A stretch of DNA of 64,000 bases from Acidimicrobiales bacterium (GTDB lineage: Bacteria; Actinomycetota; Acidimicrobiia; Acidimicrobiales; Aldehydirespiratoraceae). The stretch spans positions 1 to 64,000 of the forward strand of contig JAQWLJ010000002.1 of NCBI GenBank assembly GCA_029247365.1, given 5' to 3'. Numbering within the stretch: position 1 is the stretch's first letter; each line of letters starts with the position of its first letter. The notes under the pieces were generated by a model. It did not search any database, was not told the origin of the DNA, and saw nothing but the letters and a program-made list of their open reading frames with translations. The position numbers were made by a program, and so were the translations under genes. Shown here in pieces: positions 40,941 through 54,452 of this stretch.

Positions 40941-42092
40941 ATGACCGACACCCCCTTCGACGTCGCCGAGATCGACAAGCTGCTCACCACGACTCGCACC
41001 GTGCGCAAGCGTCTCGACTTCGACCGCGAGGTCTCCGACCAGATCATCTTCGACTGCATCGACGTCGCTGAGCAGGCGCCGAGCGGCGGCAACGACGCGA
41101 GCCGCCGCTGGATTGTCATTCGCGACGAGGCAACGAAGCAGGCGTGCGGTGAGATCTACCGTCGCAATGGCGATTTCATGATCAACGTCGCAGACCGACT
41201 GGTCGGCAGCGGCCACGGCAAGGAACGCGTCTTCAGCTCGTCGGCGTACCTGGTCGAAAACTTTGCCAAGGCGCCTGCGCTGGTCATCGCTGCGATCTGG
41301 GGCACCCACGACAACTCCGGCCGTCCCGGCTTGTTCGATTCCGTTATTCAGTCAGCGTGGAGCTTCAATCTCGCGCTCCGCGCCCGCGGCCTCGGCTCGG
41401 CGTGGACCACCCTTCTCAACACAAGCGTCGAGGAACTCGCCGAGCTCCTGGGCATTCCCCCCGGGGTCACCACGATCGTGACGTTCCCGGTCGCGTACAC
41501 GAAGGGAACCGACTTCAAGCCGGTCGCCCGCCGCCCCGCCGAGCAGATCACCTACTTTGACCGCTGGGGCTACACCCGGTCCCAGGCCAGCGAGGACGGG
41601 GGCACTCACTTCGAAGATGGCCCCGGCGTCGTTGCCGAGGTCGACATTGTGGCACCCCCAAGGGCGGTCTGGCCGCTCGTTTCCGACATCACGTTCCCGG
41701 CCCGAGCCGGCACCGAACTTCAAGGCGCCGAGTGGACGACGGACGATCGCGGCATCGGGGCGATCTTCATCGGCCACAACAAGCTCGGCGGCAACAAGTG
41801 GAGCCTCGACAACCACATCACCGCCTACGAGGAGGGTCGAGTCTTCGAGTGGTCGACCGTCGACCCTGCGAGCCCCGGCGGCCGGTGGCGCTTCGAGATC
41901 ATGGACCAGGGAGTTGGCAGTCGTGTCCGGTTCTCGGTCGAGATTGGAATGGAGAACAACCTCACCTATCCGATAGCGATGGGCTCCGACGACCCGGTCG
42001 CAGTGCTGAACGGCCGCCGCAAGGGCATCAAGGCCAACATGCAGAAAACACTCGACGCCCTGAAGGCAGGGGTGGAGGGAGCTCGTTCGTAA
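40941..42092 (+). CDS. nitroreductase-SRPBCC fusion protein
   Basis: 383 residues. Residues 1-210 are a nitroreductase domain: R-T-V-R-K-R near residue 19, Q-A-P-S-G-G-N, and G-L-G-S-A-W-T-T, which bind FMN. From about 225 an SRPBCC (polyketide-cyclase/START-like) domain begins with V-V-A-E-V-D-I-V-A-P-P-R-A-V-W-P-L-V-S-D-I, the usual opening of that fold, and ends in a long amphipathic helix. Reduction and ligand binding are thus joined in one chain. A direct-repeat copy begins exactly at its stop codon. Confidence 0.85.
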   Translation: MTDTPFDVAEIDKLLTTTRTVRKRLDFDREVSDQIIFDCIDVAEQAPSGGNDASRRWIVIRDEATKQACGEIYRRNGDFMINVADRLVGSGHGKERVFSSSAYLVENFAKAPALVIAAIWGTHDNSGRPGLFDSVIQSAWSFNLALRARGLGSAWTTLLNTSVEELAELLGIPPGVTTIVTFPVAYTKGTDFKPVARRPAEQITYFDRWGYTRSQASEDGGTHFEDGPGVVAEVDIVAPPRAVWPLVSDITFPARAGTELQGAEWTTDDRGIGAIFIGHNKLGGNKWSLDNHITAYEEGRVFEWSTVDPASPGGRWRFEIMDQGVGSRVRFSVEIGMENNLTYPIAMGSDDPVAVLNGRRKGIKANMQKTLDALKAGVEGARS

Positions 42093-42222
42093 AGCAGGGG
42101 TAGAGGGTGTCTTGCAGGGTTTGGTGTCTTGCGCTTCCGCGCGACTGTCTCCATCCAATGCAAGGTCACGAAGCAAGGAATAAAAAGAACTATCGATGCT
42201 GACTCGGTGTCATAACCGGTGG
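42090..42222 (+). repeat. 3'-flank direct repeat, copy A
   Basis: About 133 bases beginning at the TAA of the nitroreductase fusion. It is roughly 75-80% identical by eye to copy B 550 bases downstream, with a 26-base identical run (42099-42124 and 42649-42674). Inside, GGTGTCTTGC occurs twice with a 7-base spacer. No transposase, terminal inverted repeat or attC core is visible. Confidence 0.8.
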
Positions 42223-42357
42223 TGACAATGACGTTGCAGCGCCTCGAAGACGGTTGATCGCAACTGTTCTCTAAGACAGCTCGCCCCAACGAACTTACGG
42301 CTGTGGTACAAACGTCGGGAATCATTCACGCAGGAAGCGTTGATAGAGCGAAGCACC

Positions 42358-42642
42358 ATGGCCGAAAACGCTGAAGAACCGAACGAACCACCGTCCTTTC
42401 TCAAAGGCTTACGGGAAGACCTCGGTGAGGCTGCGAAAGACCTCCGAATCCGGGAGCTCGAAAGGGAGCTTGAAGTCAAGGACGCCAAAACCACGGACCG
42501 GCTCGCAAAGAAAGACGCCCGGATCGCGGAACTTGAAACGCTTCTTGAACAACGTGAGACAGATCTGACCGAACTGCAGGCAAAGAAACGGTGGCTACCT
42601 ACGAGCCTGCGACGAAATCCCCCTTTGGAGTCAGAGGTGTAA
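42358..42642 (+). CDS. small coiled-coil protein
   Basis: 94 residues, strongly charged. Residues about 30-78 form a heptad-like run of E, K, R, L and A (R-E-L-E-R-E-L-E-V-K, L-A-K-K-D-A-R-I-A-E-L-E-T-L-L), so a coiled coil is likely. The N-terminus is acidic and proline-rich; the C-terminus is basic. No family recognised. It lies alone between two direct repeats and its base composition is less GC-rich than its neighbours, hinting at a separate origin. An in-frame TTG lies at 42340. Confidence 0.6.
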   Translation: MAENAEEPNEPPSFLKGLREDLGEAAKDLRIRELERELEVKDAKTTDRLAKKDARIAELETLLEQRETDLTELQAKKRWLPTSLRRNPPLESEV

Positions 42643-42775
42643 ACCAGAGGTAGAGGGTGTCTTGCAGGGTTTGGCGTCTTGCGCGGTCGTGCGGCTGTCT
42701 TCCTCCGGAACGGGGTCACGAAGCCACGACTAGCCGAAAGGACTATCGGCGCTGACTCAGTGTCATAGCCGGTCG
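42640..42775 (+). repeat. 3'-flank direct repeat, copy B
   Basis: Second copy, starting at the TAA of the coiled-coil gene just as copy A starts at the nitroreductase stop. On the reverse strand both copies keep an open frame of about 45 codons with similar peptides and several third-position changes, but neither frame has a convincing start. Confidence 0.8.
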
Positions 42776-42899
42776 TTGCGTTGACAGTACCCAATCAGAG
42801 GTGGGGCTGCCTGCCCCCACGAATAGACGACCTCTCTCCGCTGAGGAGGGGCCTGTCGAGCACAACCAGCTATCGGGGGCCGTGGTCTACGGTTGCGAC

Positions 42900-43547
42900 A
42901 TGGCGTCCTTCGAACACACGATCAACGACCTCGCCGGCCTGCGCGCCCACTACCGCGACCCCAGCCAACTCGTGCAGAACAAGGCGACCGATCACCTCGA
43001 CGATGGCTGCCGCGACTTCATCGGCCGCAGTACCTTCGTCCTCATCGGCACAAGCAGTGCCGACGGTGCTGAGGATGTCTCACCCAAGGGTGGCCATCCG
43101 GGGTTCGTGAAGGTGCTCGACGATCAGCGGCTCGTCATCCCCGACCTCAACGGCAACAATCGGCTCGACTCGTTGCAAAACATCGTCGAGAACGGCCAGG
43201 TTGGCCTGCTGTTCCTCGTGCCGGGACTGGGCGAGATGCTGCGGGTCAACGGCAGCGCATGCGTGACTGTTGACCCCGAGATCCTCGACGGCTTCACCGA
43301 CGAGTACCGGCGACCGACCAGTGCGATCGGGGTCACTATCCGAGAGGCCTACATCCACTGCGCCAAGGCCATCCGGCGGGGCGCGTTGTGGAACTCCGAT
43401 GAGTGGCCCGAGCCCGAGAGCCGGCCGCGCGTGAGCGAGATCCTCATCGAGCACGCCGGCGTGGGCGAACACATCACCGCCGCCGAGATGTCTGCTGGCC
43501 TCGAGGATTCGTACCGCGAGGACCTCGAAGCCGATCTCCCGGCCTAG
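42900..43547 (+). CDS. pyridoxamine 5'-phosphate oxidase-family FMN protein (MSMEG_1061-like)
   Basis: 215 residues. D-F-I-G-R-S-T-F-V-L-I-G-T-S near residue 40 and D-V-S-P-K-G-G-H-P-G-F-V are typical of the PPOX-class split-barrel; P-D-L-N-G-N-N-R-L-D-S-L-Q-N-I and V-G-L-L-F-L-V-P-G follow. These fit the MSMEG_1061-type actinobacterial group, flavin- or F420-dependent reductases of unknown substrate. Start at the ATG at 42900; a longer frame runs into the repeat spacer. It overlaps the convergent ligase by four bases. Confidence 0.85.
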   Translation: MASFEHTINDLAGLRAHYRDPSQLVQNKATDHLDDGCRDFIGRSTFVLIGTSSADGAEDVSPKGGHPGFVKVLDDQRLVIPDLNGNNRLDSLQNIVENGQVGLLFLVPGLGEMLRVNGSACVTVDPEILDGFTDEYRRPTSAIGVTIREAYIHCAKAIRRGALWNSDEWPEPESRPRVSEILIEHAGVGEHITAAEMSAGLEDSYREDLEADLPA

Positions 43548-51859: not shown

Positions 51860-53044
51860 GTGCAGCTCTTCGACACGGCCCGCGGTGAGGTCGTCCCGTT
51901 CGAACCGGGCCCCGAGGTCCGAATGTATGTCTGCGGCATAACGCCGTACGACTCGACCCACCTCGGCCATGCGAACACGTACCTCCTCTACGACCTCCTG
52001 ATCCGGCGTCTCGAAGATCTCGGCCACGAGGTCAAGCTTGTCCGCAACATCACCGATGTCGACGACTCGATCCTGCCGAAGGCTCGCGAACTCGGTATCG
52101 ACTTCCTCGAGCTCGCCGCCAGCGAGACGGCCCGCTTCCACCGCGACATGGTGGCCCTCAACACAAGGCCTGTCTTCAACGAGCCTCACGCCACAAAGTG
52201 GGTCGCCGAGATGGTCGACATCATCGAAGTGCTCGAAGCGAAGGGCCATACCTACGTGGTCGGCGGCACCGTCTTCTACGACGTGTCGACGTTCCCAGAC
52301 TTCGGTGCCCTCTCGGGCTACAGCGACGAACAAATGATTGAGCTCTCCGCAGAGCGGGGCGGCAATCCCAACGACCCGCGGTTACGCAACCCGCTCGACT
52401 TCATCCTCTGGCAGCCATCTCTCGATGACGAACCGATGTGGCCATCGCCATGGGGGGACGGTCGCCCTGGTTGGCACATCGAGTGTTCGGCGATGTCGAT
52501 GGGAATCCTTGGCCCAACCCTCGACTTGCACGGCGGCGGTTCGGATCTGATCTTCCCACATCACGAGTGCAGCCGGGCCCAGAGCGAGGCGGCTAACGGC
52601 GTCACCTTTGCGAAGCACTGGATGCACGGCTGCATGGTGGCGTATCAGGGAACCAAGATGTCGAAGTCGCTCGGCAACCTCGTGTTCGTGAGTGAGCTTT
52701 CGAAAACCCACGACCCACGGGCCATCCGACTTGCGCTGATGCGTCACCACTACCGCACCGACTGGGAGTGGTTCGACGACGACATCGAAGTCGGCGCCAA
52801 GCTGCTCGACCGGATGCACCGGGCCGCCCATGCCACGGGGGGCCCTGACCCTTCGGGCTTCGCGGACCGTGCACGCGCTGCGCTCGATAACGACCTTGAT
52901 GCACCGACGGCGCTCGCGGTACTGACCGAGCTCACCGACGCGATTCTCCAGGGCGGGGACGACCCTGCAGCCCCTACAGTTTTGGCTGAACTTGGTGCGC
53001 TCGTTGGCGTCGACCTCAGCGCCGCTCCCGCCCCGATCAGCTAA
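51860..53044 (+). CDS. mshC: cysteine ligase MshC-like (cysteinyl-tRNA synthetase paralogue)
   Basis: 394 residues from GTG. Class I catalytic motifs H-L-G-H (in [10 protein letters not shown]) and K-M-S-K-S. C-G-I-T-P-Y-D rather than C-G-P-T-V-Y-D, N-I-T-D-V-D-D, and the lack of the C-terminal anticodon domain match MshC, which joins cysteine to GlcN-inositol in mycothiol synthesis. It stops 25 bases before a true cysS. Assignment against a truncated CysRS rests on the I-T-P-Y-D motif and length. Confidence 0.8.
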
Positions 53045-53069: not shown

Positions 53070-54452
53070 GTGATCCGCCTCTACGACACGCTCACCGGCG
53101 ACGTCCGTGCGCTTGCGCAGCGCGACGAGGGCAAGATCTCGCTGTACGCGTGTGGGCCCACCGTCTACGACCACCCGCACCTCGGGCACGCCCGCCAGGC
53201 TATGACGTACGACTTCATGCGCCGTTACTTCGAATGGCAGGGTCTCAAGGTCCACCACGCTGCCAACGTCACCGACATCGACGACAACATCATCAACCGC
53301 GCCAACCGAGAGGGCTCGACCGAACCCGAGGTCGCAGCCGAGTGGAAAGCGGTCTACGACGAGGCGATCTTCGAAGGTCTCAACATCCTCCATCCTCACG
53401 ACCGCCCTCACGCCACCGAGTTCGTCGATGAGATGGTCGAGTTCATCCAGACCCTGGTCGACAACGGCACCGCCTACGCCAATGACTCCGGCGTGTACCT
53501 CCGGGTGCATCTCGTCGAGGGTTACGGCGACCTCGTCCACCGCTCGCTCGACGAGCTCCGAGAGGGCGCCGGCGCCCGCGTTGAAGTTGACGACAACAAG
53601 GAAGATCCGCTCGACTTCGCGCTCTGGAAGGCAGCCAAGCCCGGCGAGCCTGTCTGGCCTTCACCGTGGGGTGACGGTCGTCCGGGCTGGCACATCGAGT
53701 GCGTCGCCATGAGTCTCGGCATCCTCGGTGACGGATTCGACCTTCACGGTGGTGGAACCGATCTCGCGTTCCCGCATCACACCAACGAACGAGCCGAAGC
53801 GATCGCCGCAGGCCGCGACTTCGCTCAGCACTGGGCGCACAATGCGATGCTCAACATCGGTGGTGAGAAGATGTCGAAGTCGCTCGGGAACTACACAACG
53901 ATCGGCGCGCTCCTCGACGAACACCCCGACAACGGGCGAGCCCTCCGCCTCGCGCTGCTGCAAACGCACTACCGCAAGACGATGGAGCTCAACACGGGCG
54001 TAATGGAACAGGCCCGCGAGGGCGTCAAGCGCCTCGACGCGATGGCACGCAAGGCGACGTCGGCAGGCGTGGCGCTCAACGGCACTGAACGTGACGCCGA
54101 TGCGATCGCTGCGTTCACCGCAGCGATGGACGACGATCTCGGCACTCCCGAAGGAGTCGCGACCATGTTTGAGACGATCCGCCGGGCCAACGCCGCCCTC
54201 GACGCTGGCGACGACTCGGCCGCGATTCTTGCCGCGACCGCAACCGATCTCGCCGCCGCGATGGGCCTCGAAATCCAGGACTCCGAACCGGCCGGCGACG
54301 ACGACGCCGAGATCGGCGCCCTGGTCACGGCTCGAACCCAGGCACGAGACGACAAAGACTTCGCCGAAGCCGACCGGATCCGCGACGAACTCACGACACT
54401 GGGAGTAACCGTCGAGGACACTGCGAACGGCCCGATCTGGCATCGTTCGTAA
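53070..54452 (+). CDS. cysS: cysteinyl-tRNA synthetase
   Basis: 460 residues from GTG, with an AGAGAG site upstream. C-G-P-T-V-Y-D, the signature H-L-G-H, N-V-T-D-I-D-D, W-H-I-E-C with the zinc Cys, F-P-H-H-T-N-E with zinc His and Glu, and K-M-S-K-S-L-G-N are all present. The C-terminal DALR-like and anticodon regions are retained, unlike the gene before it. It charges tRNA-Cys. Its TAA is directly followed by the GTG of a serine hydrolase gene. Confidence 0.95.
   Translation: MIRLYDTLTGDVRALAQRDEGKISLYACGPTVYDHPHLGHARQAMTYDFMRRYFEWQGLKVHHAANVTDIDDNIINRANREGSTEPEVAAEWKAVYDEAIFEGLNILHPHDRPHATEFVDEMVEFIQTLVDNGTAYANDSGVYLRVHLVEGYGDLVHRSLDELREGAGARVEVDDNKEDPLDFALWKAAKPGEPVWPSPWGDGRPGWHIECVAMSLGILGDGFDLHGGGTDLAFPHHTNERAEAIAAGRDFAQHWAHNAMLNIGGEKMSKSLGNYTTIGALLDEHPDNGRALRLALLQTHYRKTMELNTGVMEQAREGVKRLDAMARKATSAGVALNGTERDADAIAAFTAAMDDDLGTPEGVATMFETIRRANAALDAGDDSAAILAATATDLAAAMGLEIQDSEPAGDDDAEIGALVTARTQARDDKDFAEADRIRDELTTLGVTVEDTANGPIWHRS

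Follow-up and report, generated by a model that had tools for sequence, protein, structure and literature searches.

The coiled-coil open reading frame (ORF) in the window (the whole 64,000-nucleotide stretch of DNA that was analysed) lies between two direct repeats, A and B. The best explanation, to which a probability of about one half is assigned, is that these are members of a low-copy, non-coding, non-autonomous and MITE-like family of intergenic repeats, which is built from three modules (R1, R2, and R3) and is tied to the insertion or replacement of single genes. Comparison of the sequences indicates that the repeats are real, that they are lineage-specific, and that they are linked to gene replacement.

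Repeat A (42089–42232) and repeat B (42639–42785) are found in direct orientation about 550 bp apart and are 77.6% identical across 147 bp, with an ungapped core that is 80% identical across 94 bp. Their local alignment score is 79, and the best of 1000 dinucleotide shuffles reaches 15. A sequence-only reading of this DNA had described two direct repeats that each start at a stop codon, and this description is borne out by an identity of 78% that lies far above the shuffles. The first codon of A is the TAA that ends the preceding ORF (42090–42092), and the first codon of B is the TAA that ends the coiled-coil ORF (42640–42642). Both copies begin at a stop codon because the TAA is itself part of the repeat; the left flanking gene ends in this repeat-derived TAA here, whereas it ends in TGA in relatives. 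The 26-base run reported as common to A and B, GGTAGAGGGTGTCTTGCAGGGTTTGG, is present. The doubled GGTGTCTTGC reported within the repeats is exact in A, but in B the second unit is altered to GGCGTCTTGC. Downstream, A runs on into a partial R3 module and B into an R2 module (Table 1). The other self-matches within the window are mostly 55–66% identical and resemble paralogous genes; the adjacent 900-bp stretches at 51866–52757 and 53079–53976 are 59% identical and are probably tandem paralogous genes.

Table 1. Features of the repeat locus in the window, and the gene that occupies the same slot in the two nearest relatives.
Feature	Position	Strand	Basis or remark
Gene on the left flank, a fusion of nitroreductase and SRPBCC (Polyketide_cyc2)	40941–42092	+	Pfam; orthologs 90% identical in G007, 87% in G006
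Segment missing from the two nearest relatives	42086–42886		Similarity ends at 42085–42090 and resumes at 42887
Repeat copy A, an R1 module with three TGTCT units at spacings of 17 and 21 bp	42090–42232	+
R3-like (partial) module straight after A	42247–42300	+	74–77% identical to R3 on C6 and C14
Orphan coiled-coil ORF, 94 aa, GC 55.7%	42358–42642	+	No relative in searches
Repeat copy B, module R1	42640–42785	+	84% identical to the C6 copy, 78% to A
Module R2 after B	42792–42850	+	83–89% identical to the C14 copy and the two C6 copies of R2
Right flanking gene, FMN-dependent PPOX-type flavoprotein (MSMEG_1061 family)	42900–43547	+	Pfam, NCBIfam; syntenic in relatives
SelL-related redox gene, G007 (contig C24)	L082:5142–5690
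SelL-related redox gene, G006 (contig C29)	L083:5186–5728

The genome comprises 3.1 Mb in 75 contigs, and the window is part of contig C23. The search for more copies that the sequence-only reading had called for finds R1 on C6, C65, and C17 in addition to the two copies on C23. Five copies of R2 (one each on C23, C14, and C65, and two on C6) and three of R3 (on C6 and C14, and the partial one on C23) complete the family. A sequence profile of R1 scores the five copies at 88–100 bits, with no sixth match in the 178 kb of DNA scanned. R1 is about 114–145 bp long, R2 about 55 bp, and R3 about 165 bp, and the copies are scattered on five contigs without a clustered array. The modules occur in varying order: R2 follows R1 in B and on C6 and C65, and stands without R1 on C6 and C14, while R3 comes after R2 on C6, after the csp gene on C14, and directly after A in its partial form. 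The distance of 550 bp and the direct orientation of A and B would suit a local event, the tandem duplication of a single intergenic region without any mobility, but more copies are present on four other contigs, and the nearer match of B is the C6 copy (84%), not A (78–79%). The dispersed copies refute this explanation, and its probability is negligible. The R1 copies on C65 and C17 share 95.7% identity across 117 bp and lie in unrelated flanks, which argues for a fairly recent, rather than ancient, dispersal of the repeats within the genome.

The starting point at a stop codon is not general. Only A and B, two of the five R1 copies, begin in this way; on C6, about 37 bp separate the copy from the stop of the preceding gene, the C65 copy starts about 250 bp past a stop codon, and the C17 copy about 350 bp after a tRNA-Ala gene, so the question whether copies always follow a stop codon is answered in the negative.

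The link between the repeats and gene replacement comes from the comparison with relatives. Nucleotide similarity to the two nearest relatives (G007 contig C24 and G006 contig C29) breaks off on the left side of the segment given in Table 1 and restarts just upstream of the PPOX-type flavoprotein gene. In both relatives, the slot between the syntenic flanking genes holds a SelL-related redox gene (about 590 bp), the place of which is taken in this genome by A, the orphan coiled-coil ORF, and B. The relatives' gene matches the SelL-related redox family at 133 bits (cut-off 120), and in both it contains an in-frame TGA within the motif HRHIH-TGA-LPC; this codon probably encodes selenocysteine, which would make the product a selenoprotein with a UxxC motif. 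The proposed cassette is therefore missing from the two nearest relatives, where a different gene occupies the syntenic slot, and neither are A and B the only two copies nor is the locus unchanged in relatives.

Three of the repeat loci can be compared with relatives (the window, C6, and C14), and gene content differs at all three, with the repeats inside the differing blocks or at their edges. On C6, a 2.4-kb block is missing in G007, where both flanking genes abut. The block spans from the stop codon of one flanking gene to the start codon of the next, its edges do not coincide with the repeat ends, and it contains an alpha/beta hydrolase gene, R1–R2a, a small gene, and R2b–R3. The small gene (103 aa) matches no Pfam family and has a conserved context elsewhere in G007, G006, G001, G008, and G002. 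C6 has only a 426-bp unit in common with that conserved locus of the congeners. This unit comprises the gene with about 100 bp upstream and about 7 bp beyond the stop codon, has its nearest matches in the congeners (88% and 81%), and is framed on C6 by R1–R2a and R2b–R3. Among the five best candidate places scored, there is no second close copy of the unit in this genome. These observations fit, but do not prove, the relocation of a 426-bp single-gene unit to between repeat copies on C6. The hydrolase of the same block (L002:1684–2958, minus strand) looks composite, as residues 14–299 (286 aa) share 82% identity with a gene from another genus (G028), and residues 329–420 match a different gene in G003, of the same genus, at 61%. 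On C14, R2 and R3 enclose the csp gene, CCGCTGAG marks each of the two junctions, and the slot holds a GGDEF gene in relatives. Alignment of L084:1588–3372 with G007 contig C16 and G006 contig C73 places a small membrane-protein-like ORF, R2, the csp gene, and R3 where the relatives have a PAS-GGDEF gene.

The bracketed ORF is unusual in composition. Its GC content is lower than that of its neighbours, as the sequence-only reading had noted, since 282-bp slices taken from the long ORFs of the window never fall below 59.2%. GC at its three codon positions is 0.70/0.39/0.57, and its coding potential of 0.09 is ambiguous (in-frame gene slices average 0.28 and wrong frames −0.26); by these measures it is probably an atypical gene, and not certainly a gene. 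Searches of 50 genomes of the family, of plasmids, and of viral contigs yield no relatives of the protein, and the coiled-coil matches obtained are at chance level only. An antisense frame of 194 aa (42210–42794, minus strand) spans B and the coiled-coil ORF, and codon-position counts lend no support to coding.

Full elements were not detected in eight congeners, about 50 genomes of the family, and about 400 of the order; in the order-wide search, the best two candidates per genome were scored, and weak copies could escape it. In G029, a member of another genus of the family, a 53-bp stretch resembles R2 with 87% identity (L135:5109–5161, contig C217), close to a contig end and without R1; G029 is listed in the same genus as G028. 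Weak matches in G044 and G010 were judged to be due to chance. Pattern scans of a public genome collection and of viral contigs yield a single match, to the R2 20-mer in an alphaproteobacterial MAG, which has no further sequence in common and looks like chance as well. A phage or plasmid origin of the repeats was rejected, with no phage match and two plasmid matches at chance level. The distribution among the genomes searched indicates that the repeats are lineage-specific.

The main rival to a MITE-like family is plain horizontal replacement, whereby blocks from an unsampled relative would have recombined homologously within the conserved flanking genes, and the repeats would be passive intergenic DNA of the donor. 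In its favour, the edges of the blocks fall on the codons at which the conserved flanking genes stop and start; one other genus is indicated both by the hydrolase, through its similarity to G028, and by the R2-like stretch of G029; and the low GC content of the coiled-coil ORF would also be in keeping with it. However, no genome with multiple copies was found among the about 400 order or about 50 family genomes, the nearly identical C65 and C17 copies occupy unrelated sites of this one genome, and the 426-bp unit is nearest to congeners, not to a foreign donor. Horizontal replacement is considered unlikely, although it stays ahead of the other rivals.

Several properties bear on what kind of element the repeats are. 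A coding repeat was rejected, as differences among R1 copies are spread evenly over codon positions and no frame is kept across all copies; the antisense frame of R1 is open in A, B, and the C6 copy. No covariance model of Rfam scores above its gathering score (the only match, at chance level, has an E value of 0.14 and 21.9 bits, where the gathering score is 40), and neither a terminator nor a sigma-70 promoter is matched in the repeats. Their RNA fold energies equal those of shuffles, and the covariation term of the consensus fold is unfavourable. Of the earlier suggestion that this is a small cassette or a 3′-end element that travels with genes, the cassette-like replacement is real, but a 3′-end RNA element finds no support from fold, terminator, or RNA family. 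A family of regulator operators was likewise rejected, as the genome contains the exact doubled motif just twice, each time within a repeat copy. A broader possibility is that the repeats are a cis-acting regulatory or RNA element (a leader, a terminator, or an operator array of TGTCTTGC units about 17–21 bp apart) that was duplicated together with the genes it controls. Three TGTCT-like units, evenly spaced at about 17 and 21 bp, recur in all R1 copies; four of the five R1 copies are followed downstream by a gene in the same direction; and R2 in copy B can form a GC-rich hairpin. The RNA-family, promoter, terminator, and fold results all speak against such an element, as do the confinement of the exact doubled motif and the unrelated kinds of the downstream genes, and it is regarded as improbable.

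Still less probable is an integron-type origin, in which the repeats would be attC-like sites and the genes would be inserted by a tyrosine integrase. The gene-then-repeat order in the same orientation in the window and on C6 and C65, the single-gene units, and the lineage restriction of the repeats are all reminiscent of cassettes; the attC sites of chromosomal integrons are lineage-restricted. However, inspection of the aligned copies reveals no paired attC cores (RYYYAAC, GTTRRRY) at the repeat ends, that is, no GTTRRRY core with a complementary left core, and folds of single-stranded DNA of either strand are no better than shuffles (z of −0.57, 0.07, −1.69, and −0.28). The loci are scattered rather than arrayed, and the 426-bp unit includes about 100 bp upstream of the start codon. 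The sequence-only reading had seen neither an attC core nor inverted ends; the former holds, while for the latter there is a suggestive resemblance between the start of R1 and the reverse complement of the end of R3 (pairwise p of 0.003–0.9), the profile score of which is equalled by 15 of 150 column shuffles. Terminal inverted repeats of the family are suggestive only at this level. As regards target-site duplication, CCGCTGAG flanks the csp segment on C14 on either side, no clear duplication is seen at the edges of the C6 or C23 blocks, and no transposase is encoded among the Pfam-scanned neighbour genes.

If the repeats belong to a MITE-like family, genes would enter through recombination that involves the repeats. 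A circle with one gene and one repeat module may integrate into a resident repeat via a single crossover, which would produce R1-R2-[gene]-R2-R3 on C6 and R1-R3′-[coiled-coil]-R1-R2 in the window, where the outcome would be the replacement of the SelL-like redox gene by the orphan coiled-coil ORF. The original spread of the repeats would have used a transposase supplied by another element. Several results count against the MITE-like explanation: the copy number is very low for a MITE, none of the Pfam-scanned neighbour genes is a transposase, the inverted ends are not convincing, the C6 and C23 block edges show no clear target-site duplication, and the C6 block ends at codons of its flanking genes instead of at repeat ends. 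An improbable further reading is a single-gene exchange system, neither integron nor classical transposon, in which the modular direct repeats would serve as recombination sites, and genes with their own promoter region, cut near the stop codon, would be inserted at or swapped between intergenic slots.

Should the repeats take part in these events, they would provide a concrete substrate for single-gene swapping in conserved operon-like neighbourhoods of free-living actinobacterial lineages without recognised cassette systems. The gene displaced in the window is related to SelL and probably encodes a selenoprotein, so the loss of selenoprotein genes is another question on which this locus may shed light. 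Even if the repeats are merely hitch-hiking intergenic DNA, they would still be useful markers of recent gene replacement.

Among known systems, integron cassettes with attC sites resemble the family in that a single gene is followed, at or near its stop codon, by a lineage-specific non-coding repeat of about 60–140 bp. The attC cores, folded single-stranded DNA structure, and clustered array of integron cassettes and CALINs are lacking here, and the genes carry their upstream region. A second likeness is to genes bracketed by MITEs, as in the blaPER-1 region (PMC3934969), and to mobile insertion cassettes (MICs), one of which carries qnrS2 (PMC5444012): a passenger gene lies between two short non-coding repeats, with no transposase. 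Those systems have defined inverted ends, whereas here the bracketing copies are direct repeats that have diverged to 78% identity and have no recognised ends. The third comparison is with the bacterial MITEs and other dispersed intergenic repeats such as QMITE2, CIR, ERIC, and Correia elements (reviewed in PMC10969869), which, like this family, are short, non-coding, intergenic, dispersed, lineage-restricted, and without a protein of their own; some of them, such as QMITE2, are found mostly in 3′ untranslated regions (PMC10969869). The family differs from MITEs in having no established terminal inverted repeats or target duplications, only five R1 copies, modules in varying combinations, and a GC-rich sequence with no stable fold. 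For want of established ends, it is not classified as a proven MITE; as a short non-coding element without a transposase gene, present in several dispersed copies, it would count, in a broad sense, among the MITE-like repeats that are dispersed between genes.
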